Positions 6,718 through 28,000 of a stretch of DNA of 50,248 nt are shown piece after piece (the stretch's first letter is position 1; every line of letters begins with the position of its first letter). Position numbers and translations under genes: made by a program. The notes under the pieces are model-generated. The model searched no databases, was not told where the DNA came from, and worked only from the letters and a program-made list of their open reading frames with translations. The stretch is taken from positions 1 to 50,248 of the IMG/VR virus record IMGVR_UViG_3300026320_000003; one strand, 5' to 3'. Origin of the DNA: a virus.

Positions 6718-7254
6718 ATGATCCTCGACGCCCTACTTCAATTCGACAACGCTGTGTCCCTTGCAATCGCAGTTGGTTCACAAGTATCCACCAATGTCAT
6801 CGACCTCGGAATCACCTCTGGTATTCCCACTTCCGCCTCAGGCGGTGGAGCCAGAGACATCGGCATCGGTGACGATCCGGCAATGAAGCTCTTGGTCCAG
6901 GTCTCTACGACCTTTACCTCTGGCGGTGCAGCTACTTTGGCTGTCGCCCTTCAAGGCGCAGTCGACAACGGCGCTGGTGCCCCTGCCGCCTTCTCTACCT
7001 GGTGGACCTCACCAGCCTACGCCCTTGCTACCCTTGTGGCGGGAGCCCGACTCTACGATATGGATATGCCTAGGCCACCCGATGGCATCGCCATTCCTCG
7101 GTTCCTTCGACTCAACTACACCATAGGTGGCGCTACAGTCACTGCTGGCAACGTCTCATCCTACATCGTCCTCGATCGAGACGACCAGCCCTACCAAGGC
7201 ACTGATAATTCCGTCATGGGTGGATACCCTGCCGGGATCAACGTCGCGAACTGA
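6718..7254 (+). CDS. Capsid cement protein, Bbp16-like
   Basis: A 178-residue protein that starts MILDALLQFDNA and has the Bbp16-family pattern: NVIDLG near the N-terminus, ARDIGIGDDP, a long beta-rich middle, and IPRFLRLNYTIGGATVTAG near the end. In BPP-1 this protein decorates and staples the shell. It lies 14 bases after the capsid gene with AAGGAG before its ATG, so the two should be made together. Confidence 0.88.
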   Translation: MILDALLQFDNAVSLAIAVGSQVSTNVIDLGITSGIPTSASGGGARDIGIGDDPAMKLLVQVSTTFTSGGAATLAVALQGAVDNGAGAPAAFSTWWTSPAYALATLVAGARLYDMDMPRPPDGIAIPRFLRLNYTIGGATVTAGNVSSYIVLDRDDQPYQGTDNSVMGGYPAGINVAN

Positions 7255-7263
7255 GGCCCAGTC

Positions 7264-7731
7264 ATGAAAAGACTTCTCAAATACATAGGGGTGGCAGCCT
7301 TCGCTGGGCTTGCCACCCTAGCAGTGGCCCAACCTGTTATCTCAACCCAGGTCAATTCCAACACAGTCGTCCGAGCCGCACAAGGTCCTGGTGGCTCGGA
7401 CAGTTGGCTTGGCGTCGATACTATTAGCAACCGCGCTCGATTTACCTCTACCACAGGGCAAACCGGAGCCGCTACTTCCACCGCCTCAGGCGGCACTCTC
7501 TATTGGATCGGCACGGCTCCAACAACTTGGGCCGTAACGCTTCCGCTTAACCCCACCGCCGGTGAATTGGTAACCCTTGTCACCGATACAACTCTCACTA
7601 CCATGGTAACTGTTACAGCCAACACTGGTGATACCCTTCACGCCACCTACACCTCACAGACCCTTACCGCCCTTACCCCTGTAACCTTTCAGTATCAACT
7701 CTCCTCACGTACATGGTTCAGGTTAATGTAA
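7264..7731 (+). CDS. Exported structural protein with Sec-type signal
   Basis: A 155-residue protein with a clear Sec signal (MKRLLKYIGVAAFAG..., likely cut after AVA at residue 22). The rest is Thr/Ser/Gly-rich beta sequence ending in a module (WAVTLPLNPTAGELVTLV) like the C-terminal domains of phage tail fibres. First of a run of genes with export signals lying between the cement and tail genes. Either it reaches the periplasm or cell surface, or the signal-like helix is used in the virion; sequence cannot decide. Confidence 0.75.
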   Translation: MKRLLKYIGVAAFAGLATLAVAQPVISTQVNSNTVVRAAQGPGGSDSWLGVDTISNRARFTSTTGQTGAATSTASGGTLYWIGTAPTTWAVTLPLNPTAGELVTLVTDTTLTTMVTVTANTGDTLHATYTSQTLTALTPVTFQYQLSSRTWFRLM

Positions 7732-8576
7732 TGTCGCGTATCTCTCGTAGACACCTACTTCGTGGCGGTGGCGCTCTTGCTGCCACGAAGCTACTTACGC
7801 CTGCAAGTGCTGGTTTTATATTAGGCAAAGCTGGTGGTGGGGGAGGCTATCACGCTTTGGCGGTGCATTTTGACGGTAGCACATCACTATTATGTAACAG
7901 TCTAAGCTGCACCGACAGTCGGTATGTTCTCTATGTGGTGTGGACTAAGCTTCCGCTGCCTTTATCCAGCAATAGAGGTTCCACGTTACTGTGTTCAGAC
8001 CCCGATACCGAAGTGAACAATTTATTTAATATCTCAGTCAACAATAGCGGTAATTCCCTAATTGTGTTTGAGACTGGCGCGATTCCATTCAGCAGTGGAA
8101 ATACAAACTATGTAGCTGTCCAGAACCCATGGAATGAGGGGTGGTTAAATCTCATTTATGTCATTGATTCATTACACGCTGCTGGTGTGAAGCCAAAGGC
8201 AGTCTATATCAATGATGTTCTAGTCCCCGATACCAATACAGATACGAGTGGCCCCTACGTTGCCCAGTTCAACGGTCTCAAGACAACTATCGGGACGGAT
8301 AATTTCGACCTCGTACTCGGCGACATCGCCGATATGCAGCTTTACCTCTTGTCAAATGACCCGTTTGTCGCTGGGGCGCTTCCAGAGGCAACTCGTCGCC
8401 TGTTTATTGGCGCCAATGGCAAGCCGGTAAACCCGGCGACTGCGATGGCAACGCTTGGAACTCCGGTGTTGATATTCAGCGGTGATGCGATAACCTTCCC
8501 CACCAACCAAGGTACTGGTGGTGCATTCAGCCTTACCGGCACCCTGACCAACGCCACCACAAGCCCGAGTGATTAA
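7731..8576 (+). CDS. Tat-signal protein with lectin-like domain
   Basis: A 281-residue protein with a twin-arginine signal: MSRISRRHLLRGGGALAA, then a hydrophobic stretch and ASAG. The remainder looks like a concanavalin/LamG-type beta sandwich (YHALAVHFDGSTSLLC, WLNLIYVIDSLHAAG, GLKTTIGTDNFDL, GDIADMQLYL). The start at 7731 overlaps the previous stop as TAATG. Wobble positions are less C-rich than in adjoining genes, which hints at separate acquisition. Surface glycan binding is inferred from fold resemblance only. Confidence 0.72.
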   Translation: MSRISRRHLLRGGGALAATKLLTPASAGFILGKAGGGGGYHALAVHFDGSTSLLCNSLSCTDSRYVLYVVWTKLPLPLSSNRGSTLLCSDPDTEVNNLFNISVNNSGNSLIVFETGAIPFSSGNTNYVAVQNPWNEGWLNLIYVIDSLHAAGVKPKAVYINDVLVPDTNTDTSGPYVAQFNGLKTTIGTDNFDLVLGDIADMQLYLLSNDPFVAGALPEATRRLFIGANGKPVNPATAMATLGTPVLIFSGDAITFPTNQGTGGAFSLTGTLTNATTSPSD

Positions 8577-8603
8577 ACCGTGAAACCCAATGGAGATATC
8601 TAC

Positions 8604-9047
8604 ATGCGCAAATACATCATTCCTTCTTTGCTTATTCTAGCTCTGGGTCTCGGTCTTGCCGTTGCCCAGAACATCACCAAGGCCCTCCAACTATCTCAAG
8701 ACGCAACTGGCGCCTTTGGCGTTGATACCAGCAACGGTGTCTACTTCCCTGGCCACATCCTATCCACAGGCAAACCGGCTCCGGCACTAACTGCCTGTGT
8801 CACTGGAGGCACTCCCACCTTGGTCGGTACTGACTTCTCTGGCGTTATCACAGCAGGAACTACTGCCTCCACTTCTTGCGTTGTAACCTTCGGCACAGCC
8901 TATGTAACAGCGCCAAACTGCGTTGTCTCTTGGCAATCTGGGCCATTGGCTGCAATGTCTTGGGCTACCTCAACTACGGCCCTCACTATTACCCAAACCT
9001 CCAATGCGAGTTCTAAAATCGCATACATCTGTACGAGTGCATCATGA
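8604..9047 (+). CDS. Exported structural protein with Sec-type signal
   Basis: A 147-residue protein. A signal peptide spans residues 1-21 (MRKYIIPSLLILALGLGLAV, cut after AVA). The mature part is Thr/Ser-rich beta sequence with three Cys that could form disulphides. I use the ATG at 8604 (GGAG 8 bases upstream) instead of the GTG at 8580, because that places the signal at the very N-terminus. It is joined to the next gene by ATGA. Function unknown; probably tail-fibre or surface associated. Confidence 0.72.
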   Translation: MRKYIIPSLLILALGLGLAVAQNITKALQLSQDATGAFGVDTSNGVYFPGHILSTGKPAPALTACVTGGTPTLVGTDFSGVITAGTTASTSCVVTFGTAYVTAPNCVVSWQSGPLAAMSWATSTTALTITQTSNASSKIAYICTSAS

Positions 9048-9850
9048 GAAAGCTTAGCGCTGGACTTCTACTCCTTCTTGGGCTAGCCAGTCCGGCGTTA
9101 GCCCAGACTAAGTTTACCCTACCTCCTCCATCTGGGGTCTTCCTTGGTGGGTATCAAGTTGTCACCACCTGCGGAGCAGCCTCAGGCCTAGCTGCAGGAA
9201 ACCTCGCCTTCGGTGCAATGGATACCACAGGGGCAATTTGTACCTCGGCCACAGGTGGTGGAGGAGGTGGTGCTGCCACCATCGCCAACGGAGCCGATGT
9301 AGCTGAAGGCTCTACTACCGATGCTGCCTCTACCGCTGGCGGCACTGGTACCCTCTCTGCCAAGCTTCGCTTGATGACAACTCAGCTTGGTACTATCAAT
9401 ACCACCCTCGGTTCTCCCTTCCAAGCTGGGGCCTCAATCGCCAATACCACCTTTGGTGCAACCCAAGCTACTGCGGCCAATCTTAATGCTACCGTAGTTG
9501 GCACCGGTACCTTCGCTGTTCAAGCAACTACTCAAGGCGCTGTCAATATCACCCTGACCGACTGCTCCGGAACCATCGCCGCTGGTGGCGCGGCCCAAAA
9601 CGCTTTCACTGCTGCCTCTACCCGTCACGGCTTCACCATCGCCAACATAGATACTACCGAAGTCCTTTGGATGTCCTTTACCACAACTGCCGCCGCCTCT
9701 GGCACAGGTTCCTATCCTTTGGCTTCAGCTACAGCTGTCACCTTTACTGGGCTCTCTTCTTTTACCAGCCCTCCAGGTATGGGGATCAACACTGCCCTTT
9801 CTGTAATCGCTGCCACCACTGCACATAAGTTCTCCTGTACGGTTTGGTAA
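9044..9850 (+). CDS. Exported Gly/Thr/Ala-rich fibre-like protein
   Basis: A 268-residue protein with a textbook Sec signal (MRKLSAGLLLLLGLASPALA, cut before QTK). The mature part is low-complexity Ala/Thr/Gly with beta-helix-like stretches (QAGASIANTTFGATQATAAN) and a polyglycine run, typical of fibres or adhesins. Two Cys near the C-terminus (TDCSGT, KFSCTVW) may pair. No catalytic motif is visible. Confidence 0.73.
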   Translation: MRKLSAGLLLLLGLASPALAQTKFTLPPPSGVFLGGYQVVTTCGAASGLAAGNLAFGAMDTTGAICTSATGGGGGGAATIANGADVAEGSTTDAASTAGGTGTLSAKLRLMTTQLGTINTTLGSPFQAGASIANTTFGATQATAANLNATVVGTGTFAVQATTQGAVNITLTDCSGTIAAGGAAQNAFTAASTRHGFTIANIDTTEVLWMSFTTTAAASGTGSYPLASATAVTFTGLSSFTSPPGMGINTALSVIAATTAHKFSCTVW

Positions 9851-9851
9851 C

Positions 9852-10646
9852 ATGAAGCGCTTAGCCTCCTTTGCAATAGTCTTCTTCTTCTTCCTCGTCG
9901 TGCCCACTGATGCTCAATTCCAGCGTGAATGCCGATATGGCTTTTGTAACTCATCTACGACACTCGTATTTGACCCATTTTGGACCAGCGTCAAATTATT
10001 GATGGGTTTCAACGGCTCTAACGGGTCCACTGGCGCCCCAGGTATGACTGACGAGAGTAGTGCCGCACATGGTACAGCTACCGTCGCCGGGGGACCGCAG
10101 ATAAGCACGGCGCAGTCAGTATTTGGAGGGTCGTCCATATTATTTAGTGCAAATGGAAATATTACCTTCCCCGATAGTGCTGACTTTGATTTATCAAACC
10201 AGTCCTTTACACTTGAAATGCGTTTTCGTCCGGCGTCGATAAGTGGAGGTATCTCCTTCTTAATTGATCAGTGGACTAGTCCTAATAATGGCTGGGCGCT
10301 TTATCAGAACAATGCCACCCTTAATTTTGATGGCAGTACGACCGGCTCAAATGATGTTGTCATAATAAGTGTCGCCAGCGCCTTAACCTTGAACACATGG
10401 ATCGCTCTTTGCGTTGATTTCGATGGCACTAAATATCGAATGTACAAAGATGGCGTAATGATTGGTTCTTCGACTTCAACGATGACCTTCTTCAACTCGG
10501 CCAGTGTATTGGATATTGGTAACAATCCAGGGGCTGCTTTTTTTCTCAACGGCAACATCGATGAATTACGATACACCAAAGGCGTCGCACGTTACGCCAG
10601 CGATGGCGGATATACCGTGGCGACAGCGCAATTTCCGCGACAATGA
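9852..10646 (+). CDS. Exported LamG/concanavalin-like protein
   Basis: A 264-residue protein with a Sec signal (MKRLASFAIVFFFFLVVPTD, cut before Q), then AQFQRECRYGFC. It is followed by a LamG-like jelly roll: FGGSSILFSANGNITFPDSA, NQSFTLEMRFRP, TWIALCVDFDGTKYRMYKDG, GNIDELRYTKGVARY. LamG domains bind glycans or protein surfaces. The motif AQF-x(2-4)-C-x3-FC straight after the signal is shared with the next gene. Codon choice is more mixed than in capsid genes. Confidence 0.78.
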   Translation: MKRLASFAIVFFFFLVVPTDAQFQRECRYGFCNSSTTLVFDPFWTSVKLLMGFNGSNGSTGAPGMTDESSAAHGTATVAGGPQISTAQSVFGGSSILFSANGNITFPDSADFDLSNQSFTLEMRFRPASISGGISFLIDQWTSPNNGWALYQNNATLNFDGSTTGSNDVVIISVASALTLNTWIALCVDFDGTKYRMYKDGVMIGSSTSTMTFFNSASVLDIGNNPGAAFFLNGNIDELRYTKGVARYASDGGYTVATAQFPRQ

Positions 10647-10665
10647 TCAGGTAGAGGCTGTAACC

Positions 10666-11517
10666 GTGCATCGTGGATTAGTAACTAGACGAGGACTTCT
10701 TCGAGCTGCCGGCTTTGCTGCGCCAGCAATACTACTATCGCATAGCGCCCCGGCACAATTCACCGGTTGCCTGCCAGCATTTTGCTCACGTCCTTCTTTC
10801 ACCCCAGCGATCTCCGGCATAGTTGGCATGTGGGACGCAAGTAATTTCCCAAGCCTTACTCTTAGCGGAGCAGATATCCTCAGCGTCGCTGATGGAAGTG
10901 GTGGCGGTAATACTATGACTCCGGCCGGTAGTGGTCATAAACCACAATACAACGCAACTGGATTTAATTCACGTCCAGCTATGGTCTTTACTGCTACCGA
11001 TCTAGGCGCATTTGAAGCTGCATCGTTCCCTATTGGAACTGGCAATACGCTTACAGTATGGTATGTTGGAACCTTAGCCAATAATGCTTCCCAACCTTTC
11101 GGCCGTTTTATGTCGTATACTAAACCGGCTGCCGCCGCCGACTTCAACAACGTCGGTTCATTTGGGATGACGACAAACTCCGGTTCGCAGACACTAGTAC
11201 AAGTAGCTAATAACAGTGTTTTCGTCACTAATAGCGGCCTAGCCGCCCCTCCCGCAGGACACCGGATAATTGTTACAAAGGACTCCAGTGGAGTTATAAC
11301 AATTTATGTAGACGGTGTTGCGGGTACTCCCGCTACATCTGTCGGTAATTGGGTCAGCGCTGGTTTTGCAAACATTGGTATGCAACATGCTAGCATTGCA
11401 TCTGGAGTTGATTTTATATCAGCAGCAGTAGGCGAATGCGGTATAGCCACAAGCTTTAACAATTCAGCTGCTGTTGCAGCTATCGATGTAGGTCTGAAAA
11501 ACAAATGGGGACTATAA
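10666..11517 (+). CDS. Tat-signal protein with lectin-like domain
   Basis: A 283-residue protein from a GTG start at 10666 with AGAGG 9 bases upstream. The N-terminus carries a twin-arginine motif (TRRGLLRAAGFAAPAILL) and APA before QF, then AQFTGCLPAFC, matching the Cys motif of the previous gene. The rest is a concanavalin-like sandwich (GIVGMWDASNFPSLTL, NSRPAMVFTATDLGAF, RIIVTKDSSGVITIYVDG). An in-frame ATG at 10504 would lie inside the previous gene and bury the signal, so I reject it. Confidence 0.74.
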   Translation: MHRGLVTRRGLLRAAGFAAPAILLSHSAPAQFTGCLPAFCSRPSFTPAISGIVGMWDASNFPSLTLSGADILSVADGSGGGNTMTPAGSGHKPQYNATGFNSRPAMVFTATDLGAFEAASFPIGTGNTLTVWYVGTLANNASQPFGRFMSYTKPAAAADFNNVGSFGMTTNSGSQTLVQVANNSVFVTNSGLAAPPAGHRIIVTKDSSGVITIYVDGVAGTPATSVGNWVSAGFANIGMQHASIASGVDFISAAVGECGIATSFNNSAAVAAIDVGLKNKWGL

Positions 11518-11539: not shown

Positions 11540-12055
11540 ATGGCACGATGGAGACTGATCACCGGACACTATCTCAATGTTCTTCTCGACGGCCAATCAG
11601 CCGAATGGGAATACAAAGAGATTGACCGCAACACCGGCAAGCAGGCGAGGAAAATCTTCCCTGTCCCAATGCTTATGGACCCGAACGATCCTGCTGATTG
11701 CAACTACCCAGGCGAAATCATCGTCTGTCATGAAGGCAAAGGCGAACGCCGGGATATCGTCTTCGTCGGCAATCCCACCCCAGATATGGAACCTTATGAC
11801 GAAGAAGCTGAGGCCATCTCTGCCTCCCTTCGCCAGAAGTGGGAGCACCCAATCGAATCTCTTCCAACAACCATGTCTGATGGCGAATCTGCCTTCATGG
11901 CGAAGCTGATGGAGGCAATGGGTCAGGCGAAGCCAGCCGCCAACGCTTCGGTCTCTATTGAACAATACAACGAACTTAAATCCCTCGTCGAAGACCTCAA
12001 GGCCCAACTTGCTACGTCCAAACCCTCTTCCCCTGTCACCGAACGTAGAGTATAA
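11540..12055 (+). CDS. Hypothetical virion-operon protein
   Basis: A 171-residue protein starting MARWRLITGHYLNV. It has a conserved-looking beta-rich N-terminal half (GEWEYKE-like AEWEYKEIDRNTGKQ, VGNPTPDMEPYDEEAEAISA) and a helical C-terminal part with a short coiled coil (SIEQYNELKSLVEDLKAQL). Proteins of this appearance recur in podovirus virion operons, but no function is known to me. AAGG about 11 bases before the ATG. Ends in Glu-Arg-Arg-Val. Confidence 0.74.
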   Translation: MARWRLITGHYLNVLLDGQSAEWEYKEIDRNTGKQARKIFPVPMLMDPNDPADCNYPGEIIVCHEGKGERRDIVFVGNPTPDMEPYDEEAEAISASLRQKWEHPIESLPTTMSDGESAFMAKLMEAMGQAKPAANASVSIEQYNELKSLVEDLKAQLATSKPSSPVTERRV

Positions 12056-12058
12056 CTC

Positions 12059-12448
12059 ATGACAGTCCTCGGAGGCGTAGGTGCATCTCTTGTCTTCTCC
12101 TCGGCCAGTGGAGGTAAAGTCTATGGGTACAACAACGTCTCCGAGTTTGCTACTATAGTCGTAGCCCAAGCCAACCCTTCTCGCCAGTCTATCACCTTCC
12201 ATAATCCTGGCGCGAAGGATATCTTCATTGGCCCAGTAAATATACAGAATGTTCTTGGTACAGCTCCTACTACACCATCGAATGTTCCCTTGGCTCTCAG
12301 CAATGTTGCACTTGGTGGCTGCTTCCGGGTCTACGGCAATGGTGGGGCTTTAGTAATCTCTGGTGAGTGCCAGGGCGCTTGGCAAGCATTTGCCACGAGT
12401 GCTGCGGGGGCTACCAATCCGTTAACGGTTATGGAGTCTAACGTCTGA
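12059..12448 (+). CDS. Hypothetical beta-rich protein before the tail fibre
   Basis: A 129-residue protein with beta-strand character (RQSITFHNPGAKDIFIGPVN, GGALVISGECQGAWQAFAT) and no signal peptide. It resembles small capping or fibre-associated modules by composition only. Start follows the previous stop by three bases; its TGA overlaps the fibre ATG as TGATG, so it is coupled to the fibre gene and could be a fibre chaperone or base part. Confidence 0.68.
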   Translation: MTVLGGVGASLVFSSASGGKVYGYNNVSEFATIVVAQANPSRQSITFHNPGAKDIFIGPVNIQNVLGTAPTTPSNVPLALSNVALGGCFRVYGNGGALVISGECQGAWQAFATSAAGATNPLTVMESNV

Positions 12449-14055
12449 TGAAACGTGTCCTCCTAGCCTTAGCCCTTCTCTCCACCCTCGCCCTTGGCTC
12501 ATCTGAGGCCCAGAATACTACCTGCTCAGACCGGCCTGCTGGCGATTCCTCTAATGCCTGTGCCAATACTCGGTTCGTTCTAAACAATGGAGGCGGTGGT
12601 GGGGGAACTCCAGGAGGCCTAAACCTCCAAGTCCAATACAACAACGCTGGCGCCTTTGGTGGCCTAACCGATGCGCAGCTAACTGGTAAGATCATAGCCT
12701 TCACCTCTTCCCTCTCTGGAGCAGCTCCAGCCTCAGGCGGTGGTATCTTCAACTTCCTCCGAGCCGATGGCACCTGGGCCTCGCCCGGTAGCGGCTCAAC
12801 TATCGTAGGCACCATAATCCCTTGGGCTGGTGCATCAGTCCCGCCGAAGTATCTCTTAGCCTATGGCCAAGCAGTCAGTCGAGCAACCTATCCTGACCTA
12901 TTAACAACTATAACATTCCAGCCAAGCATAACCTGCACTTCCGGCTCGCCTACCTTTACTGTAGCAACAGCCACCAGCGACCGCGTCCCAATCGGCGCAG
13001 CAGTAGAGGCCTCAGCCTGCTTCACTGCTGGAAAGACAGTGATATCAAAAGCCTCTGGCTCTCTAACCCTAAGTGGCAACGCGATCGCTAGCACCACTAC
13101 CTCTGCTCGCATCTTCCCTTGGGGCAATGGTGACGGATCGACCACCTTTAACCTTCCTGATTTACAAGGCAGAACCCCAGCAGGCCGGGATAATATGAGT
13201 TCTGCTGCTGCTGGGCGATTAACAACTACCTTCTTTGGAGCAAACCCAGACGCCATCGCTGCTGGTGGCGGTAATCAATCTACCACCTTAGCACAAGCCA
13301 ACCTACCCAATATAATCCTAGCCACTAACATCATCGACCCAGGCCACGCGCATAATATAACTGGTTCTACGTCCAATGCTGGTAATGCCGGTATATTAGG
13401 CTCCTTCATATCGCAGATAGGTTCAGGTGGCTCCGGAGTTCTACTTGGGTCCGACGTACCAAATACCACTGGTATCATTGCGAACACCCCACTCGGCGGT
13501 ACCAACACCCCAGCTTCCCGAGTTCAACCAGCTATAACCGTTGACTATATCATTAAAGTCCTTGCTGATGATATCTCCGTTGGTGGTGGTATCACAGTTG
13601 GTTCGACTGTTGTAAACAACGGCTCGACCACCAATGTCCTCTACAATAACGCTGGAGTCCTTGGTGAATATGCCCTCGCCACCCTACCCGACATGTATGC
13701 AGGCACCGCCAACAATAAGCTTGTCACCCCAAGCGTCATTTGGCCAACCGAGACCACTACCACGTTTGGCTCTACCACCACCTTCGACTTCTCCACCTTT
13801 CGAGACACCAAAGTCACTCTCACTGGCAACATCACCACAATGACGGTCTCTAACGTCGTAGTCGGCAAAGCTGGCTCAATTGCTTTCATCCAAGATGGTA
13901 CTGGTAGCCGAACCACCGTTTGGAGTTCAACCTTCAAGTTCGCAGGTGGAACTACCCCAACCCTTACCACTACCGCAGGTGCTGTAGACATCCTATCTTA
14001 TTCCTGCCGAACCTCTACCTTCTGTTACGCTGCAATGATGAATGATGTCAAATAA
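12448..14055 (+). CDS. Tail fibre with tail-collar domain and signal peptide
   Basis: A 535-residue protein. Residues 1-21 are a Sec-type signal (MKRVLLALALLSTLALG, then SEA before Q). A glycine-rich linker and a phage tail-collar domain follow (VGTIIPWAGASVPPKYLLAY, FNLPDLQGRTPAGRDNM, HAHNITGST). The C-terminus is a beta module seen on many fibres (FRDTKVTLTGNITTMTVS). Collar proteins normally act in receptor binding. A signal on a fibre is odd, but shared with its upstream neighbours. Confidence 0.85.
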   Translation: MKRVLLALALLSTLALGSSEAQNTTCSDRPAGDSSNACANTRFVLNNGGGGGGTPGGLNLQVQYNNAGAFGGLTDAQLTGKIIAFTSSLSGAAPASGGGIFNFLRADGTWASPGSGSTIVGTIIPWAGASVPPKYLLAYGQAVSRATYPDLLTTITFQPSITCTSGSPTFTVATATSDRVPIGAAVEASACFTAGKTVISKASGSLTLSGNAIASTTTSARIFPWGNGDGSTTFNLPDLQGRTPAGRDNMSSAAAGRLTTTFFGANPDAIAAGGGNQSTTLAQANLPNIILATNIIDPGHAHNITGSTSNAGNAGILGSFISQIGSGGSGVLLGSDVPNTTGIIANTPLGGTNTPASRVQPAITVDYIIKVLADDISVGGGITVGSTVVNNGSTTNVLYNNAGVLGEYALATLPDMYAGTANNKLVTPSVIWPTETTTTFGSTTTFDFSTFRDTKVTLTGNITTMTVSNVVVGKAGSIAFIQDGTGSRTTVWSSTFKFAGGTTPTLTTTAGAVDILSYSCRTSTFCYAAMMNDVK

Positions 14056-14957: not shown

Positions 14958-15151
14958 GTAAGGACACCCTAGACGAGTATGGCTCCGACTCCTACGTCGG
15001 TCAGGCTCCACGTGCTACCAACGGTGGCCACTGTGAGCCAAAGCCAATCCCGTACTCCCCACCTAAGGGCCCAACCAACATTGGCGATCCCAAATCGCCC
15101 GGCCTCCATGGAACCAACCACGGCTGCTGCGGAACCCAAGGGAGACATTAA
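14954..15151 (+). CDS. Small hypothetical protein with C-terminal CCG motif
   Basis: A 65-residue polar protein rich in Pro and Gly with a His/Cys ending (GLHGTNHGCCGTQGRH). Related in its last dozen residues to the 14590-14793 product. Starts by ATGA overlap and stops one base before the Tad2-like gene. Metal binding is possible from the Cys/His content but not shown. Confidence 0.7.
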   Translation: MSKDTLDEYGSDSYVGQAPRATNGGHCEPKPIPYSPPKGPTNIGDPKSPGLHGTNHGCCGTQGRH

Positions 15152-15152
15152 G

Positions 15153-15446
15153 ATGCAAGGAATCGGTTGGGCTGTTAAACAGATGCAAGATGGGCATGCT
15201 GTTAGACGTAGTGGTTGGAACGGCAAAGGTATGTTTATATGCCTAATGCCCGAACTGCAATTGCCGCCATTCAATACACAGGATACAAATCGAAAGGTAA
15301 ATGATCGTACAGCTAAATGGATTGGTGAAGATCAATCCTTGAATTGTCGCCCGTACATTGCAATGTACAATGCACAAAAGGAATGGCAACCTGGATGGTT
15401 ATGCTCCCAAGCTGATCTTTTAGCTACTGATTGGGAACTTGTGTAA
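15153..15446 (+). CDS. Tad2-like anti-defence protein (DUF2829)
   Basis: A 97-residue protein matching the DUF2829 pattern: GWAVKQMQDGHAVRRSGWNG, GKGMFICLMP, a variable middle, RPYIAMYNAQ, and a C-terminal SQADLLATDWELV. Characterised members (Tad2) are oligomeric sponges that bind gcADPR signals and so block Thoeris immunity. GGGAG lies 8 bases before the ATG, and the stop overlaps the tail-tube gene as TAATG. I reject the in-frame ATG at 14979 because it lies within the previous gene. Family match is strong; activity here is inferred. Confidence 0.86.
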   Translation: MQGIGWAVKQMQDGHAVRRSGWNGKGMFICLMPELQLPPFNTQDTNRKVNDRTAKWIGEDQSLNCRPYIAMYNAQKEWQPGWLCSQADLLATDWELV

Positions 15447-20329: not shown

Positions 20330-22087
20330 TTGGCCCAAGTCCCCTATACTGGTGTTCCATCCCAAACTCTACAGGACATCCCCACTCCTGAGATGCAGCC
20401 GCGTGTTCCTTCGGCTGCCTTCGGCGGTGAGGTAGCACAAGCTATCTCTGGATTAGGTCATACAGTAGCTGGTGCTGGCGATGAAATCTTTGCTAGGGCT
20501 GTCGCCTTACAGAATCTCCAAAACGAAGCTGAGGCTACTGAGGCTGACGCTAAGTACATGCAGGCTGCTGGTGATCTTCATGCCGAATTCAATGCCAAGC
20601 AAGGGAAGGAACGGGTTGATGCGTATCCTAAGTACAAACAGGATTTAGATACAGCTAGGCAAAGTATTCGTGGTGGCCTATCTTCGCCTATGTCCCAGAA
20701 GATGTTCGATCGATCATCTCTATCCACTATGGGCCGATCGATCTTCAATGGTGCCGGTGTAGCTGCCGAAGGTCAACGACAGTATGTTATTCAATCGGCT
20801 GTATCTCAATCAAAGCTAGATGCCAACACCGTCTCTGAAAACCCAGATGATCCAAATACCTTCCAAGATAAGCTTCAACAAGCAAGAAAGAATGCCATCA
20901 CTATATCAGCAGCCAAGGGCAATCCAGAAGGCAGTCCGCAAGAACAATTGGAGATCAAGAATGCTGTAAGCAATCTCTATTATAGTAAAATCGATGGTAA
21001 GGCCAACAAGGATCCCTACACTGCTAGCAAATGGCTAACGAAGTATAGAACCGAACTAAACGATGAGGACTTGCCTAAGCTTGAGCTTAAGGTTAGAAAC
21101 CAAGCTCGGGCTATTGACGCCCAGAATATCGCCAATGAAATTTACAATGAAGGCAAGGCTGGGCCAGGCAAGCCTGGAAAGTCTGCTGTTGAGATGGAAG
21201 AAGCAGCAAACGCTAGGGCCAAAGAGCATGATCCTGATGATCCAGTCTTAGCTCAACATACTCGTGCTGCGGTGCAGAATTTAGTTAGCCGGAACAGGTA
21301 CAATGAAGCTCAGGAGGATCACGCCAATACTTCAATCATCAATCGAAAGATCGTTGGCGGGGTGGCGAGTGAGCAAGAACTCAGGGCCGATCCTGTAGCT
21401 GCTAAGGCTGCGGATGACTTGATCGCCAGTGGTAAGAAGCTCAATCTTGGTGCTGAGATTAACAACTATAACACCGCTCGTGATCGCAAAGACAATATGG
21501 AGCGTTTCAATACCATTATGGGTTCGGCTAATAATGATGTTGAAAGCTTCCTTAATTACAATCCTCGTGCCGACCAGAAGCTTAGTCAGAGCCAAATTAA
21601 CTCCGTGATCGCCAAGCAGGAGCAGTTCAAGAAACAAATCGCTCAAGACCCAAGGGTCGATCGCGCCATGAGCTGGCTTCGCACTGGCAAGTCAGCTGAA
21701 ATGGGGGAGAGTGGCCTTAATCTTATGCATCGAAAAGGCCACGAAGATGACTACGACCGTTTGACTGGAGCAGTTCAATCTTCTCTGGATATTTGGATAG
21801 AGAATCATAATAAACCGCCTAGCAATAAGGAGTTCCTCGAACAGATCGCTCCGCAGCTACTTCAAGAACATGCTGCGCCAGGAACCTTTGGTTATCTCTT
21901 TGGTGGCACTAAAGAACCATTCTTCAAACCGGATACTAGCACTAAGGATTATATAAACTTCGCCAAGAGTGAAAAGCAGAAGGCTTTGGATAGCAGCCGT
22001 GCAGAACCAACTGACGCACAACTTGACCGGGCCTATACTCGTGTTCAACTACTTAGACTCTATCCCGGAAAGGCTACTGGGAAATGA
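20330..22087 (+). CDS. Internal virion protein, T7 gp15-like
   Basis: A 585-residue helical core protein. It begins at a TTG immediately after the previous stop (MAQVPYTGVPSQTLQDIP), with helices such as DEIFARAVALQNLQNEAEAT and no transmembrane segments. In T7-like systems the second ejected protein lines the periplasmic tunnel. The TTG start is used because it gives no gap and restores the family-like N-terminus. Ends in an ATGA overlap with the giant core protein. Confidence 0.82.
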   Translation: MAQVPYTGVPSQTLQDIPTPEMQPRVPSAAFGGEVAQAISGLGHTVAGAGDEIFARAVALQNLQNEAEATEADAKYMQAAGDLHAEFNAKQGKERVDAYPKYKQDLDTARQSIRGGLSSPMSQKMFDRSSLSTMGRSIFNGAGVAAEGQRQYVIQSAVSQSKLDANTVSENPDDPNTFQDKLQQARKNAITISAAKGNPEGSPQEQLEIKNAVSNLYYSKIDGKANKDPYTASKWLTKYRTELNDEDLPKLELKVRNQARAIDAQNIANEIYNEGKAGPGKPGKSAVEMEEAANARAKEHDPDDPVLAQHTRAAVQNLVSRNRYNEAQEDHANTSIINRKIVGGVASEQELRADPVAAKAADDLIASGKKLNLGAEINNYNTARDRKDNMERFNTIMGSANNDVESFLNYNPRADQKLSQSQINSVIAKQEQFKKQIAQDPRVDRAMSWLRTGKSAEMGESGLNLMHRKGHEDDYDRLTGAVQSSLDIWIENHNKPPSNKEFLEQIAPQLLQEHAAPGTFGYLFGGTKEPFFKPDTSTKDYINFAKSEKQKALDSSRAEPTDAQLDRAYTRVQLLRLYPGKATGK

Positions 22088-25000
22088 GTAACACCGACTT
22101 CGACGAGGACTTTGATCCAACTAGCTATATAGCTCGACAGCAACAAGCTTCGAGAATGTATGCACTTGGATCGCTGGCTGACGATCCAGAAAAGGCTGCT
22201 AGGGCAGTAGAATTAGGTGATGCTACTGGCGATAAGCCTGCGTTGATTTATGGAAATTTAGAGAATTACGAAGAACAACACAAGGCTGCGTTGACTGCAT
22301 CTCTACTTAATTCAAACAAGTATCTCCGTGAGTACGTCGATGCTGATCCTATGCATGCCAAAATCTCTAACGATGACTACGGCAACCTCGATTCGCTTAG
22401 CGAATCTGTCCAAAAGCTATCTCTATCCCGTCCTGGCTATGCACCAGATGCTATAAGTGGAGCCCTTGCAGTTTTCAGTAGCTCTATTGCTGGAGGGGCC
22501 ATTACCGGCTTCAAGCGTGGATGGGCTAATGTCACCGACCCAAAGCATGTAACTGATGAAGACCTTAAGAACTATCCGCTCTTTACAGCCTTGATGCAAT
22601 CGGCTAGGTTCCCAGTCGATGTCGGTGGGGCATTACTTGAAGCAGGCATTGAAGCTATACATGCTGGAGCTAAGACTGGATACAAGCAGATCACTGGCGA
22701 TGAGATGGGGGCTGAAAGGTTCTCTCGTGATATCGCTGGTATGGCTGAGACAGTTCTTACCAATACCTCAGGCTATCATGGCATCCATGCACCTTCGCCT
22801 GCCCAGTTAGAAAAGGTCCATGGCATCCTCGACAAGGCCAAACCTTGGCTCGACGACTCCAAAGAACCCCCTCGTGGACTTGATCCTGAGATTGACAAAC
22901 TCAAGTTCGAACAAAACAAACTCGACCTGGACAATCTCGATGAAGCCCTTAAAGCTGCCCAAAGCTCTGCTACTCGTGAACGGTCGCCGGAGATTTTTGC
23001 TTCTTTCATTCGCCAGCATACTGATGCTAGTATTGGCATTTCTGGTGATGCTGTGGCTAAGCTTTATGGAGACAAGGTCCCCGAGGCCGGGGATAATATT
23101 CTTGGATGGTCCCCCAGGATTGCTGAGGAAATTCGAACCGCTGTAGCGACTGGTGGGGATGTACAAATTCCGTTGGCCGACTGGCTGGCGAAGGTTGATC
23201 CAGAGGTGGAGAAAGCGCTTCATGATGATATCCGGGTTAGGCCGGGAGGGATTACTAAGAATGAGCAAGAAATTGCAAAGGACTATATCGAAGGTGGGTA
23301 TAAGCCGGCCGAGATCATTCCTGAACCTGCCGACTTAGATGCACGTATAGACGCATTGTCAGAAGAACGCAATTCGCTTAATACTGAGGAATATCAAGGT
23401 GTTCCTAATACAAAGGTTGCTAAGGAGAATGTAGAATTAGCTAGGGCTTTAGAAACAGCACGTGCTGTTGGATTTAATCATGAACAAGCTATGGAATCTG
23501 CTAAATGGGCACTTGAAAATGGCCGTCCTGATATTGCACAAGTCCTAGTTGATCGTGCAGCCAAGCGAGCAGGAAAGCCTGCTAATGTTCCTGGCTTACC
23601 AGAAGGACATCCTAGATACGAGCAGGCTAAGGCACGCATTGCGGAATTAAAGGCAGAAGAACAAACTCAACTTAGTGAGATTAAGGCTGCTACTAAATTA
23701 GAATCTACTGAGGGTGCTATTCCTAAGCCCCCCGAAATCATCCCCGAACCTCTCCCCTCCGTTCGAGGCGCCAGTGGCCTTGAGCCGATGTTCTCCCAAG
23801 GCGATCGGAAGTTGACGCTGGAGAAACGGCCGCCAAGAGAGAAGGCACATGGCTTTTCCTTAGGCCCTGATGCATCGATTCCAGCCGATGAATTTAAGTT
23901 AATTGACGAAAACGGCAAGAACGCTGGCTGGCTAGAAGTAGTTCCATTCGATGGTGGTAAACGTCTATATGTAGACAACGTCGGTGGGTATGAGTCTAAG
24001 GGTTATGGCCCCAATGCCTTCGGTCCAGCCCTCACTCGGGATATCGCCCGCCAACTTAAGGAAGCCTATCCAGAAGCTACCCATATCGGCGGCTTCCGTA
24101 TCTCTGGAGCTAGAGAAAAGGCCGGGACGACTAGGGAGATTTGGATTAAGTTTGACGAGCTTGAAGGATCCAAGGGTGGGCTTTCACGAGGTTGGCTTCA
24201 TGAGATATTGAATCCTACTCAAACCTTTGATATAGGCAAAGCAGGCATCCTTCACTACAGTCCTGAGTTTGCACCGCATCAGGCCGAGGCTGATAAGATA
24301 ATCCGAGCTACCTTAGCCAGGATCGCTCCTGATGCACAGGTCTTTACCCCTAGTCATATTGAAGTCCCAGGTAAGCCCTTCGCTGTTCGTGGCGGCTTTA
24401 TGCTGCCAATGCTTAAGCAGAATCCTTGGATCGTTGTTGCACTAGATGCTGCTGATGCCCTCGGTGTAGCTCGTCATGAGGCAGTTCATTATCTTAAGCA
24501 GTTTGGGTTCTTCTCAGAGAAGGAATGGTTTAATCTAACTCGAGCAGCAAGGGATAATGACTGGATTAAGAAGTTTAGAATTGATGAGCGATACCCCGAC
24601 CTCGATATGCCAAGCAAGCTCGAAGAGGCGATCGCCGAGGGCTATCGAAATTGGGCTCGTGGTGAGGAAGTCCCATCACATCTCCACCCGATCTTCGAAC
24701 GATTGAAAGAACTCTTTGAATCCCTCAAATCTCAGCTTAAAGAACTCCTTGGCCGTGAGCCTACTTGGGAAGAACTCTTCCAGAAGATGGACACTGGCGA
24801 AGTTGGAGCGAGGAAGCCTAGGGGACATGAAGGTGGGGCGTTCCTTGAACCCAAGATGATGGAGGAACCAGAAAAGATAGTAGGTGCAACATTTACTATT
24901 GAAGGTCGTACTTTCACTGGAGCTAACCATGTCGAAGCAATGGAAAAGGCTAATAAAGAACTTGGAAGTGATGTGGTTGCCAACACATTCAGTAAATTGA

Positions 25001-28000
25001 TTTCTGCTGGTACACGGCGTGATGCAGATGGCTTTATGACTTCTACCGGCCGTGTAGTATCTCGCGATGAGGCAACAAAGATTAGTGAAGCGGCCGAGCA
25101 AGGAACTGCTGCACATCCGTCAGGGACATTAAAGGCCGAGGATATTGAGCCAAAGTTCTCCGTCGAAGACAAGCCCATGTTCGACAAGGCCGCTGCGGTT
25201 GGTATGACAGCGGATCAGTTCAAACGCTATATGAAGCTCATCGATCAACGCCACACCGAAGACCTAGCAGCAGCCCAGGCTCGAGCCGAAGCCGAACAGG
25301 GCAAGCGTCTCACCAAAGAATGGAAAGACAACGAGAAGCAAGTCCGTCAAGACGTTTCAGAGTCCATCCGCAATCGCCCAGACGTGGCTGCCGATCTCTT
25401 CTTTGGTGCTGGGGAACTCTATGGAAGTAAAATCGATGGTCGATTCAAGATTGGTGAGAAGTACCTGTCTCCAGAACAAAAGGCCAAGTTGCCTAGAAGC
25501 TACGTTTCTAAATCAGGCATTAACCCTGATGACTTTGCTGGTGAGTTCGGTTATAGTTCCGGCGACGCTATGATAGACCGGCTTGGCGAATATAATGAGG
25601 CCAAGCTCCAAGCTGGCATGTCTACCAAGGATTATGTCAAACGAGTCACCGATCTTGAAGTCGATCGCCAAATGCAAATCAAATACGGCTCGCTTGAGAA
25701 GTCCGTTCTCGAAGAAGCTCAGGACCAAGCAACCTCTGAAACCCAGGTCAATATCCTTCATGAGGAGACCTTAGCGCTAGCCTTGAGAAACAATGCCGAA
25801 GGTAGCATTTCCAAAGACGAGATCAGGTCTTGGGTCAAGCAAGAGTTCGCCAATAAGCCGATTGGCTCCATCTCCTTCGATTCCTACATGACCGCCATGG
25901 GCAAAGCTGGCCGGGCAGCCGAAGATGCTTTACTTAAAGGGGACTTCGCTGAGGCCTTCCGAGCGAAGCAACAGCAGTACGTCGGTATGCTCTATGCTCG
26001 CGAAGCCAAGCAGCTAGAGAAGGCCCGAACCCAATTCGACAAGTTCGCCAAACGCTACAACGTCCGTACGATAAAAGACCAGCCAGCCGAACGTCAAGCT
26101 TGGACTGATGCGATCCATGGTATCTTGCAACAGGTTGAGTTACCAACTGGTGGAAGGGATAGCGCCGAAGTTCTTGGGTCCCTATCAAAAGCTGGCTACA
26201 AGGACATAGCCAGCTTTATCCAAGCCAAGGAATTTCCCCAAGGCCTTGAAGGTCAGAGGCAGGCTATAATCCCCGTCGCCAATTTCCTCCTTGATGGCTC
26301 ATTCAAGAAGCCTTTGGATCAAGTCACCGCAGCTGAGTTTAAGGCTATTCACGATTCGGTTAAGACCTTAGATCACCAAGCCAAAGCAGAGTCCAAAGTA
26401 ATCAAGGGTGGCGAGAAGGCCGATCGTGAAGAGACGATGGATCAGTTGGTGAACCAAATCGAACAGCGGGCACCATCTAAAGAACTTCGAGTAGACCTGC
26501 TTCCGTCGAAGAATTACATGAAGCATTACCTTGCTTCTAGTATAAACCTAGAAACCATCTTCGATACCATTGACCGAAATAACCCAAGGGGATTGATGAA
26601 CCAAACCATCGTTCGCACCTTCACCGAACCGGCCAACGAAGAACGAGCCTTGTGGAATAAATTCGGTGATCGAATCAACGCTCTACCTAAAATCAAAAGC
26701 GCCAACAAACTCGTAGACAATCCCTTCTTCAAGGACCCCCGCACTGGCGAGTTAATGATATTCTCTCGACGGAATGTTCTCACCGTTCTACAGAATATGG
26801 GTAATCCAGGAAACTTCTACGGCCTGCTTCGTGGGTATGGCATCAAGGACGCAATGGCCCCGGCAGTGAAGGATTGGGTTTGGCGGAATGTAGACAAGGA
26901 AGATGTCCAACGTGCTAAGATGCTTGGTAGTATACTTGAGGATTCCAAACACGACCATGCCGACCCTATGTATCGCTATATGACTGGGATCGAACCGCCA
27001 GAGATAGACCTCTGGACGGTCGATGCGCCAGCAACTCATGGTGGCCCTATCGAAGGTTGGTACCATCCCATTATCTACGACCTAAACATGCCGCAAAAGA
27101 GTGCAAAGCTCGCTGGGCAGAATGTTATCGAGCAGCCTTATTACGTCAAGCGCACTCCAACCTCTGGATACACTCAGGTTCGTACTGGCTATACCGGCCC
27201 CTACTCCTTACAACTGGATGGAGTTCAGACTCGTCTTGGTCAAGTCATCCACGATGCCGTTTGGCGACCAGCGTTGGATCAACTGACCAAGATTTTCATG
27301 GACCAAAGATTTCAAACCGCTATGCAAAAGCATTGGGGGAAGGAATACGCAGATCAACTTGAACCATTTCTTCGATCCATCGCCGGGACCGGCGAGTTCA
27401 CTAGTGAATCCCAAGCTGTGGTTTTACATGCTATTCAATTCGTCAGGACTAATATGCTTAGCCACTTGGTTGGATTGAATCCTTCAACCTTCGCCAAGCA
27501 TACATTTACAGCTGCTGTTAATAGTATCACCCAAGTCGGCCTTAGAAACTATGCTGATGCTCAAGCAGCTATGTTCGCGCGTAATCCGGCGACCGGTGAG
27601 ACTAATTGGACATGGCACATTAACGATAGTGAAGAACTTCAAGGTAGACATCGGCACTTTATCGACACCGTTCGTGGAAGCTTCGAAGCCACCTATGGTC
27701 ATCTTGCGGCGGCTAATGATATGAAAAGCTTCTTAGATAACTTCGAAGGGCGGTCATTGAAGGAAGGTGTCCGGGCCGCTGCTTCTGATGTTAAAGCCAA
27801 GTATCTATCGATCCGTGAAGCTCTGATGTACATCGAATCTGCACCCTTAGCCTACGGTGATCTATTCACTGCTGTGCCTACTCGGTACGCAGCATACGAA
27901 AAGGCTATAGCCGAAGGAGCCGATCGAGGCCAAGCCAAGTTCGAAGCCGATCGTGCTGTGCGTATGGCGCATGGGTCTACGGCTTTAACAAACCGACCAC

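Follow-up and report, generated by a model that had tools for sequence, protein, structure and literature searches.

Predicted export signals and mostly even cysteine numbers in putative fibre, spike and lectin-like proteins of the virion operon of BPP-1-like podoviruses

Introduction

The assembly of tailed phages is classically described as a cytoplasmic process. In the filamentous phages (Inoviridae) the coat proteins use the Sec pathway, and pIII contains periplasmic disulfides. Among the tailed phages, BPP-1 (Rauchvirus) and the epsilon15-type podoviruses share one order and set of virion gene families (terminase, portal, Bbp19, protease/scaffold, major capsid protein, Bbp16 and Bbp14-/Bbp13-like tail proteins), and in BPP-1, BcepC6B and other relatives the Bbp16 gene is followed almost directly by that of Bbp14, with no exported block. 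The stretch analysed here, IMG/VR record IMGVR_UViG_3300026320_000003 (a complete virus record of 50,248 bases, hereafter the window), comes from a BPP-1/epsilon15-like podovirus with this same gene order, but with a block of genes whose products bear predicted export signals placed between Bbp16 and the tail proteins. The preliminary description of the window had pointed to these signals; the observation is real and wider than was seen there, and it holds for most loci of a clade.

The virion operon of the window holds terminase, a Bbp21-type portal (phrog_332), Bbp19 (PF25181), protease/scaffold, a Bbp17-type major capsid protein (phrog_212), the Bbp16 cement protein (PF21190) and then the Bbp14/13-type tail proteins (phrog_394 and phrog_376), in that order. 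The capsid protein is 26–56% identical to those of the named phages listed, with 47% for BPP-1.

Results

Export signals in the window

Seven open reading frames (ORFs) with possible export signals were found between the Bbp16 gene (6718) and the tail genes, as had been described. They are given below with their neighbours; proteins are named after their first base, export is a prediction in every case, the arrow marks the predicted cleavage site and scores are those of the Sec scorer introduced further down.

6718–7254 (+): Bbp16-like cement protein without signal, bordering the cassette on its upstream side (PF21190, E 4.9e-15; 0 of 66 homologues with signal)
7264–7731 (+): predicted exported spike-like protein, Sec signal 7264–7329 (MKRLLKYIGVAAFAGLATLAVA↓Q), score 3.07, no mature cysteine
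7731–8576 (+): predicted exported protein, probable twin-arginine (Tat) signal 7731–7811 (MSRISRRHLLRGGGALAATKLLTPASA↓G; Pfam TAT_signal E 0.0048), 3 mature cysteines
8604–9047 (+): predicted exported protein resembling a lectin or tailspike tip, Sec signal 8604–8666, score 3.62, 4 mature cysteines (C65, C92, C106, C143)
9044–9850 (+): predicted exported protein, Sec signal 9044–9103, score 3.38, 4 mature cysteines
9852–10646 (+): predicted exported LamG/concanavalin-like protein, Sec signal 9852–9914, score 3.66 (PF13385 E 2.2e-18, 67.3 bits)
10666–11517 (+): predicted exported protein, weakly LamG-like, Tat signal 10666–10755 (TRRGLLRAAG...APA↓Q), score 2.82 plus Tat motif
11540–12055 (+): conserved protein without signal, closing the variable block (0 of 47 homologues with signal)
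12059–12448 (+): small protein without signal, a type A adaptor by its position just before the exported fibre (no signal in any of 25 homologues)
12448–14055 (+): predicted exported collar-domain tail fibre, Sec signal 12448–12510 (MKRVLLALALLSTLALGSSEA↓Q), score 3.47, 6 mature cysteines (PF07484 E 1.4e-14)

Five of these proteins (7264, 8604, 9044, 9852 and 12448) display the n-, h- and c-regions and the AxA site of a Sec signal without a Tat motif, an architecture with predicted cleavage that is found clade-wide, and 10666 combines an S/T-R-R-x-F/L motif with a mildly hydrophobic core and an AxA site. The hydrophobic cores measure 11–13 residues. The signal of 7731, also claimed before, is marginal: its SRRHLL...ASA pattern is clear by eye, the Sec score is 2.17, the strict Tat scan is not passed and the TAT_signal match lies under the curated cut-off. 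None of the core genes tested in the window has a signal. The genes are tightly packed (the start of 9044 overlaps the preceding stop by 4 bases), and some cassette starts have no good ribosome site.

Signals are retained across the clade

Relatives were collected through a capsid protein search of IMG/VR, which gave 555 encoding stretches; the best 80, 87–100% identical, were kept. The block was defined as the interval that begins at the capsid gene and stops at the first tail gene, or where the contig ends; non-core ORFs of at least 100 amino acids were counted in it, and signals were predicted with a purpose-written Sec scorer at a threshold of 2.7, set after the window had been seen. The threshold was passed by 190 of the 383 block genes (50%), by 2 of 345 core virion genes and by 18 of 229 other non-core genes, and 64 of 69 loci contain at least one signal. 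Residue shuffles of the cassette N-termini passed in 28 of 1149 cases. The scorer misses some clear signals, such as that of L015 (MFNIITILAGLLISPAQA↓QNITC). A separate strict Tat scan passes 10666 and two relatives (L004 and L082) and none of the 345 core genes. Cleavage sites follow AxA, usually as AxA↓Q, with Sec signals common and Tat signals rare. By family, signals are found in 23 of 26 homologues of 7264 (family A1) and in 16 of 16 of 8604, and the family of 9044 is the most frequent exported one in the clade (48 members).

It is hardly credible that these signals come from miscalled starts, or from hydrophobic stretches arising by chance at the N-termini of beta-rich phage proteins. 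The scorer and the ORF tiling are simple, and the poor ribosome sites point in that direction, but core genes and shuffles pass very rarely and the cysteine parity described below is independent of the scorer. An artefact was thus rejected for the set, with single genes such as 7731 uncertain.

The exported bodies form 43 clusters among the 190 proteins, and therefore the signal is retained while the body turns over. The motif AQF-x(2-3)-C-x3-FC is shared by 9852, where it follows the cleavage site directly (AQF-QRE-C-RYG-FC), and by 10666 (AQF-TG-C-LPA-FC; family A4, with Tat or Sec signals on its members), much as the preliminary description had it; AQF-C-x4-C versions were found again in L004, L006, L078 and L082. 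In the AQF-GxCLPxxC body family Tat-type signals are carried by 10666, L004, L006 and L082 and Sec signals by 9852 and L078, and that one body family can carry either kind of signal argues that export itself is selected, not the signal sequence. LamG homologues in Rhizobium, Microcystis and Tetraselmis-associated phages have no signal, so that LamG as such is no sign of export. The 'putative tail protein' of Rhizobium phage RHph_Y5A (L118:467–3148) has a signal-like N-terminus (MKLVFWFFVALLTLTETALA↓D).

Cysteine numbers are even after predicted cleavage

Exported proteins of Gram-negative bacteria favour even numbers of cysteines, which is thought to minimise non-native disulfides in the oxidising compartment (PMC7678975). 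When counted on the mature part of the complete exported proteins having any cysteine, the number is even in 153 of 165. Near-identical contigs among the loci inflate the raw counts; the safest number is therefore that of the non-redundant test, in which proteins reduced to less than 25% identity are even in 38 of 44 cases (p 5e-7). No parity bias could be seen in the controls (signal-less block genes, 57 of 137; core genes, 102 of 211; other genes, 98 of 197). Where the signal itself has an odd number of cysteines, the mature count is even in 32 of 33 proteins, so that parity appears only after the predicted cleavage. A closer view of single families shows pairs as well: in that of 8604, C65 and C92 occur either both or not at all and C106 and C143 are invariant, and in that of 7264 the cysteines of TLCW and RLCTDTT vary as a pair. 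Taken with the signals, these data make export and disulfide maturation of the cassette proteins very probable.

The parity also bears on the proposal that the signals anchor the fibres during exit. As uncleaved membrane anchors or assembly tethers, the hydrophobic N-termini would tether the fibres to the inner membrane up to the moment of exit, and cores of their length might cross a membrane or insert into it partway. The AxA↓Q sites are clear, however, the parity holds only with the signal removed, and the pairing of cysteines implies an oxidising compartment; because the parity data point to cleavage, uncleaved anchoring is disfavoured and appears very unlikely.

The collar fibre and its adaptor

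The collar domain of 12448 was matched with 54.2 bits (cut-off 24), together with fibre-type ends. The new N-terminus expected after cleavage bears TTC-SDRPAGDSSNA-C, and this mature start (QNTTCSDRPAGDSSNACANTRFV) is similar to the start of the L046 homologue, in which both cysteines are missing (QYATTAPTRPTGDNSNAIATTAFV). The upstream adaptor 12059 overlaps the start of the fibre gene by 1 base. In 21 of 22 cases the gene after a type A adaptor encodes a fibre with a signal; other relatives have an unrelated protein of 141–143 amino acids (type B) at this position, and for separate adaptors of either type the figure is 29 of 33. In L033, L036, L051, L057 and L072 a long fibre without signal has the type B domain joined to its N-terminus. 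The one other fusion (L073), a marginal case, did score as having a signal, and thus five of six fusions lack one. Fused and separate type B domains are 31–39% identical with 20 invariant columns, the cysteine content is 1.76% in the separate exported fibres and 0.30% in the fused ones, and the fused fibres of L051 and L057 share sequence with 12448 (38–61% identity over parts). The contrast between fused and separate forms is accounted for best by taking the exported fibre to be the distal portion of a virion fibre and its adaptor to remain cytoplasmic.

Some further arrangements could be seen in this region. A signal-less ORF, HNH endonuclease-like by eye, lies between the adaptor and the exported fibre in L014 (6919–7395), an ORF of similar look follows the L059 adaptor (L059:9058–9495), and L077 has two collar-type fibres (7640–8782 and 9863–11515), one without signal peptide and one with.

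Folds of the cassette proteins

The AlphaFold (AF2) model of 7264 (predicted local distance difference test, pLDDT, 80.6) retrieved in Foldseek the Pa223 capsid spike (E 6e-4), the CBA120 tailspike TSP4 (E 8e-4) and T4-type gp10, and in BFVD 121 viral models at E <1e-3, with many phage proteins. For the model of 8604, weak matches to H-type lectins and to the Pam1 and Sf6 tailspikes were obtained (E 0.04–0.2). Going by these models, several cassette members are spike or fibre-tip domains, and the earlier label 'lectin-like' suits only some members. Three LamG-like bodies had been proposed: that of 9852 is firm (PF13385), that of 10666 is weak and below the cut-off (E 0.008, 16.8 bits against 27.6), and 7731 has no Pfam or PHROG support. 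Relatives of the 7264, 8604 and 9044 bodies were searched for among GenBank phages and none was found; PHROG gave nothing for the 7264 and 8604 families and a weak match to a PHROG of unknown function for 9044, and a body search with 10666 returned a near-identical contig as sole match. A deviating wobble use had also been claimed for the lectin-like genes. The G+C content at third codon positions (GC3) is 0.35 in 10666; 7731 (0.50) and 9852 (0.48) are like the other cassette genes, and the tail gene 16544 has 0.41. A foreign origin of all lectin genes on this ground was rejected, GC3 supporting 10666 only.

These folds have to be weighed against the possibility that the exported proteins are not virion parts but free lectins or adhesins coating or leaving the cell, with receptor blocking (superinfection exclusion), aggregation or decoys as functions. 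Sec and Tat are the normal routes of periplasmic or surface factors, LamG and H-type-lectin-like bodies fit glycan binding, and the bodies turn over fast. The genes nevertheless sit inside the virion operon, 7264 has spike- and gp10-type matches, homologues of the collar fibre occur at the corresponding point of the operon without a signal and joined to the adaptor, and otherwise no receptor-binding protein is recognised in the window genome (no other fibre-like gene was found among the remaining virion-side ORFs searched). Such a free role is thus improbable, if not negligibly so. The earlier suggestion that the proteins go to the surface of the infected cell stands as regards export, strongly supported by the clade-wide signals, the post-cleavage parity and the Sec/Tat swapping; the surface role is less likely than a virion role because of the fused, signal-less occurrence of the collar domain.

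Other genes of the window

Replication genes are placed on the opposite strand (DNA polymerase A, uracil-DNA glycosylase (UDG)-exonuclease, helicase and PD-(D/E)XK nuclease). One ORF joins a UDG domain with a DNA polymerase exonuclease domain, the polymerase domain lying in the next, overlapping ORF (33547–34665 and 32024–33550, −). A large polyvalent protein of 2210 amino acids with an LPD22 domain is encoded at 22084–28716 (+). Within the virion operon, 14979–15446 (+) has a Tad2-like domain (PF11195, E 3e-22), and its product is likely a Thoeris anti-defence protein. The lysis-type genes comprise an endolysin (28725), a holin-like gene (29270, weak Pfam match) and a lipoprotein-like gene (29575), a holin-, endolysin- and spanin-like set. 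No integrase turned up among the window proteins scanned, nor a diversity-generating retroelement with Mtd among the ORFs scanned, no dedicated reverse transcriptase or variable-repeat search having been made. The nearest genome matches are contigs in metagenome-assembled genomes of Terriglobia (L083) and Telmatospirillum (L084), possibly through binning errors.

Discussion

The explanation favoured for the whole, and fairly probable on the evidence of the sequences, is that the virion is built in two compartments. The cytoplasm would be the place where head, portal, tail and the small adaptor at the 12059 position are produced and put together. Fibres, spikes and lectin-like modules (7264–11517 and 12448), by contrast, would be translocated to the periplasm by Sec, rarely by Tat, cut after AxA (usually AxA↓Q) and then disulfide-bonded by the host Dsb system. 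At lysis the holin would open the inner membrane, and the matured fibres and spikes may then dock on the adaptor and on other exposed sites of the preformed virions. In P22, tailspikes attach late to finished particles in vitro, which makes late docking plausible. A virion role with such docking is on balance probable for the exported proteins. The benefits may lie in oxidative folding, in adhesin stability in soil and in preventing sticky adhesins from meeting the glycan precursors of the cytoplasm.

Several points weigh against two-compartment building. The exported block is absent from the outgroups BPP-1, BcepC6B and Acetobacteraceae prophages, as it is from Caulobacter RapA, Limnohabitans DC33 and the other prophages listed. 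Fusion to the adaptor was seen for type B only, not for type A of the window, and its counts include near-identical contigs. An open-access literature search found no account of exported tail fibres, nor a documented docking precedent, in tailed phages. Finally, the lectin-like or Tat-associated proteins 7731, 9852 and 10666 carry an odd number of mature cysteines, 3 each. This last point suits a mixed set, in which the collar fibre and 7264-type spikes dock late and the LamG/Tat proteins act at the host surface; the latter differ from the others in their odd cysteines and patchy distribution, and 10666 in its GC3. The LamG/Tat genes, however, lie scattered among the others within a single, closely packed operon, and LamG modules are frequent in virion proteins of other phages, so that a division of this kind seems unlikely.

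Beyond the window, the chance is slightly better than even that tailed phages of soil bacteria, podophages and siphophages alike, use two-compartment assembly, with adhesins oxidised in the periplasm joining cytoplasmic virions only at lysis. In some of these phages the route would have arisen when a cytoplasmic fibre was divided into an adaptor that stays in the cytoplasm and an exported distal portion, or would have disappeared when the two were fused. If adhesins do mature in the periplasm, host export and Dsb systems would help to set the host range of phages, receptor-binding proteins could easily be predicted in uncultured soil phages (a signal and even cysteines after Bbp16), and fibres made in the Escherichia coli cytoplasm without disulfides may misfold, which matters for their use as tools.

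Comparison with known systems

The Bradyrhizobium siphophage ppUSDA122Bd-1 (OP596612) was reached through the collar search; its 482-amino-acid collar protein and 865-amino-acid tail fibre (accessions WAX24263.1 and WAX24264.1 for the pair) have Sec signals and 6 and 18 mature cysteines, respectively, and the mature fibre is predicted to start with AEQSSYV. Among 19 IMG/VR homologues of the 865-amino-acid fibre examined, 13 have a signal, and all 13 have even mature cysteines (12 are complete ORFs). This phage thus resembles the clade in that its collar protein and its tail fibre both bear Sec signals and have an even number of mature cysteines; it differs in being a temperate siphophage and in the unrelated body of its 865-amino-acid fibre, and the term 'signal peptide' is absent from its paper (PMC10127595). 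Not all Bradyrhizobium phages have the trait, since the virion-side genes checked in the podophage ppBjS10J-1 of the same study have no signals. The host strain of ppUSDA122Bd-1, B. diazoefficiens USDA 122, releases siphophage particles spontaneously (PMC10127595), and an exported-fibre model is testable because a siphophage with the same trait is known to form particles.

The Inoviridae, which likewise use Sec for virion proteins, extrude through the membrane without lysis, whereas the window belongs to a podovirus, a tailed phage, and has genes resembling those of holin, endolysin and spanin. Export to the periplasm is also the route of other phage-encoded proteins, T4 Spackle (gp61.3) among them, but these are non-virion immunity factors and not fibre or spike modules of a virion operon. 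At the level of a single protein, 12448 resembles the tail collar fibres (PF07484) in its collar domain and fibre-type ends; unlike the usual collar fibres, it has a predicted cleavable Sec signal, paired cysteines and a separate adaptor.

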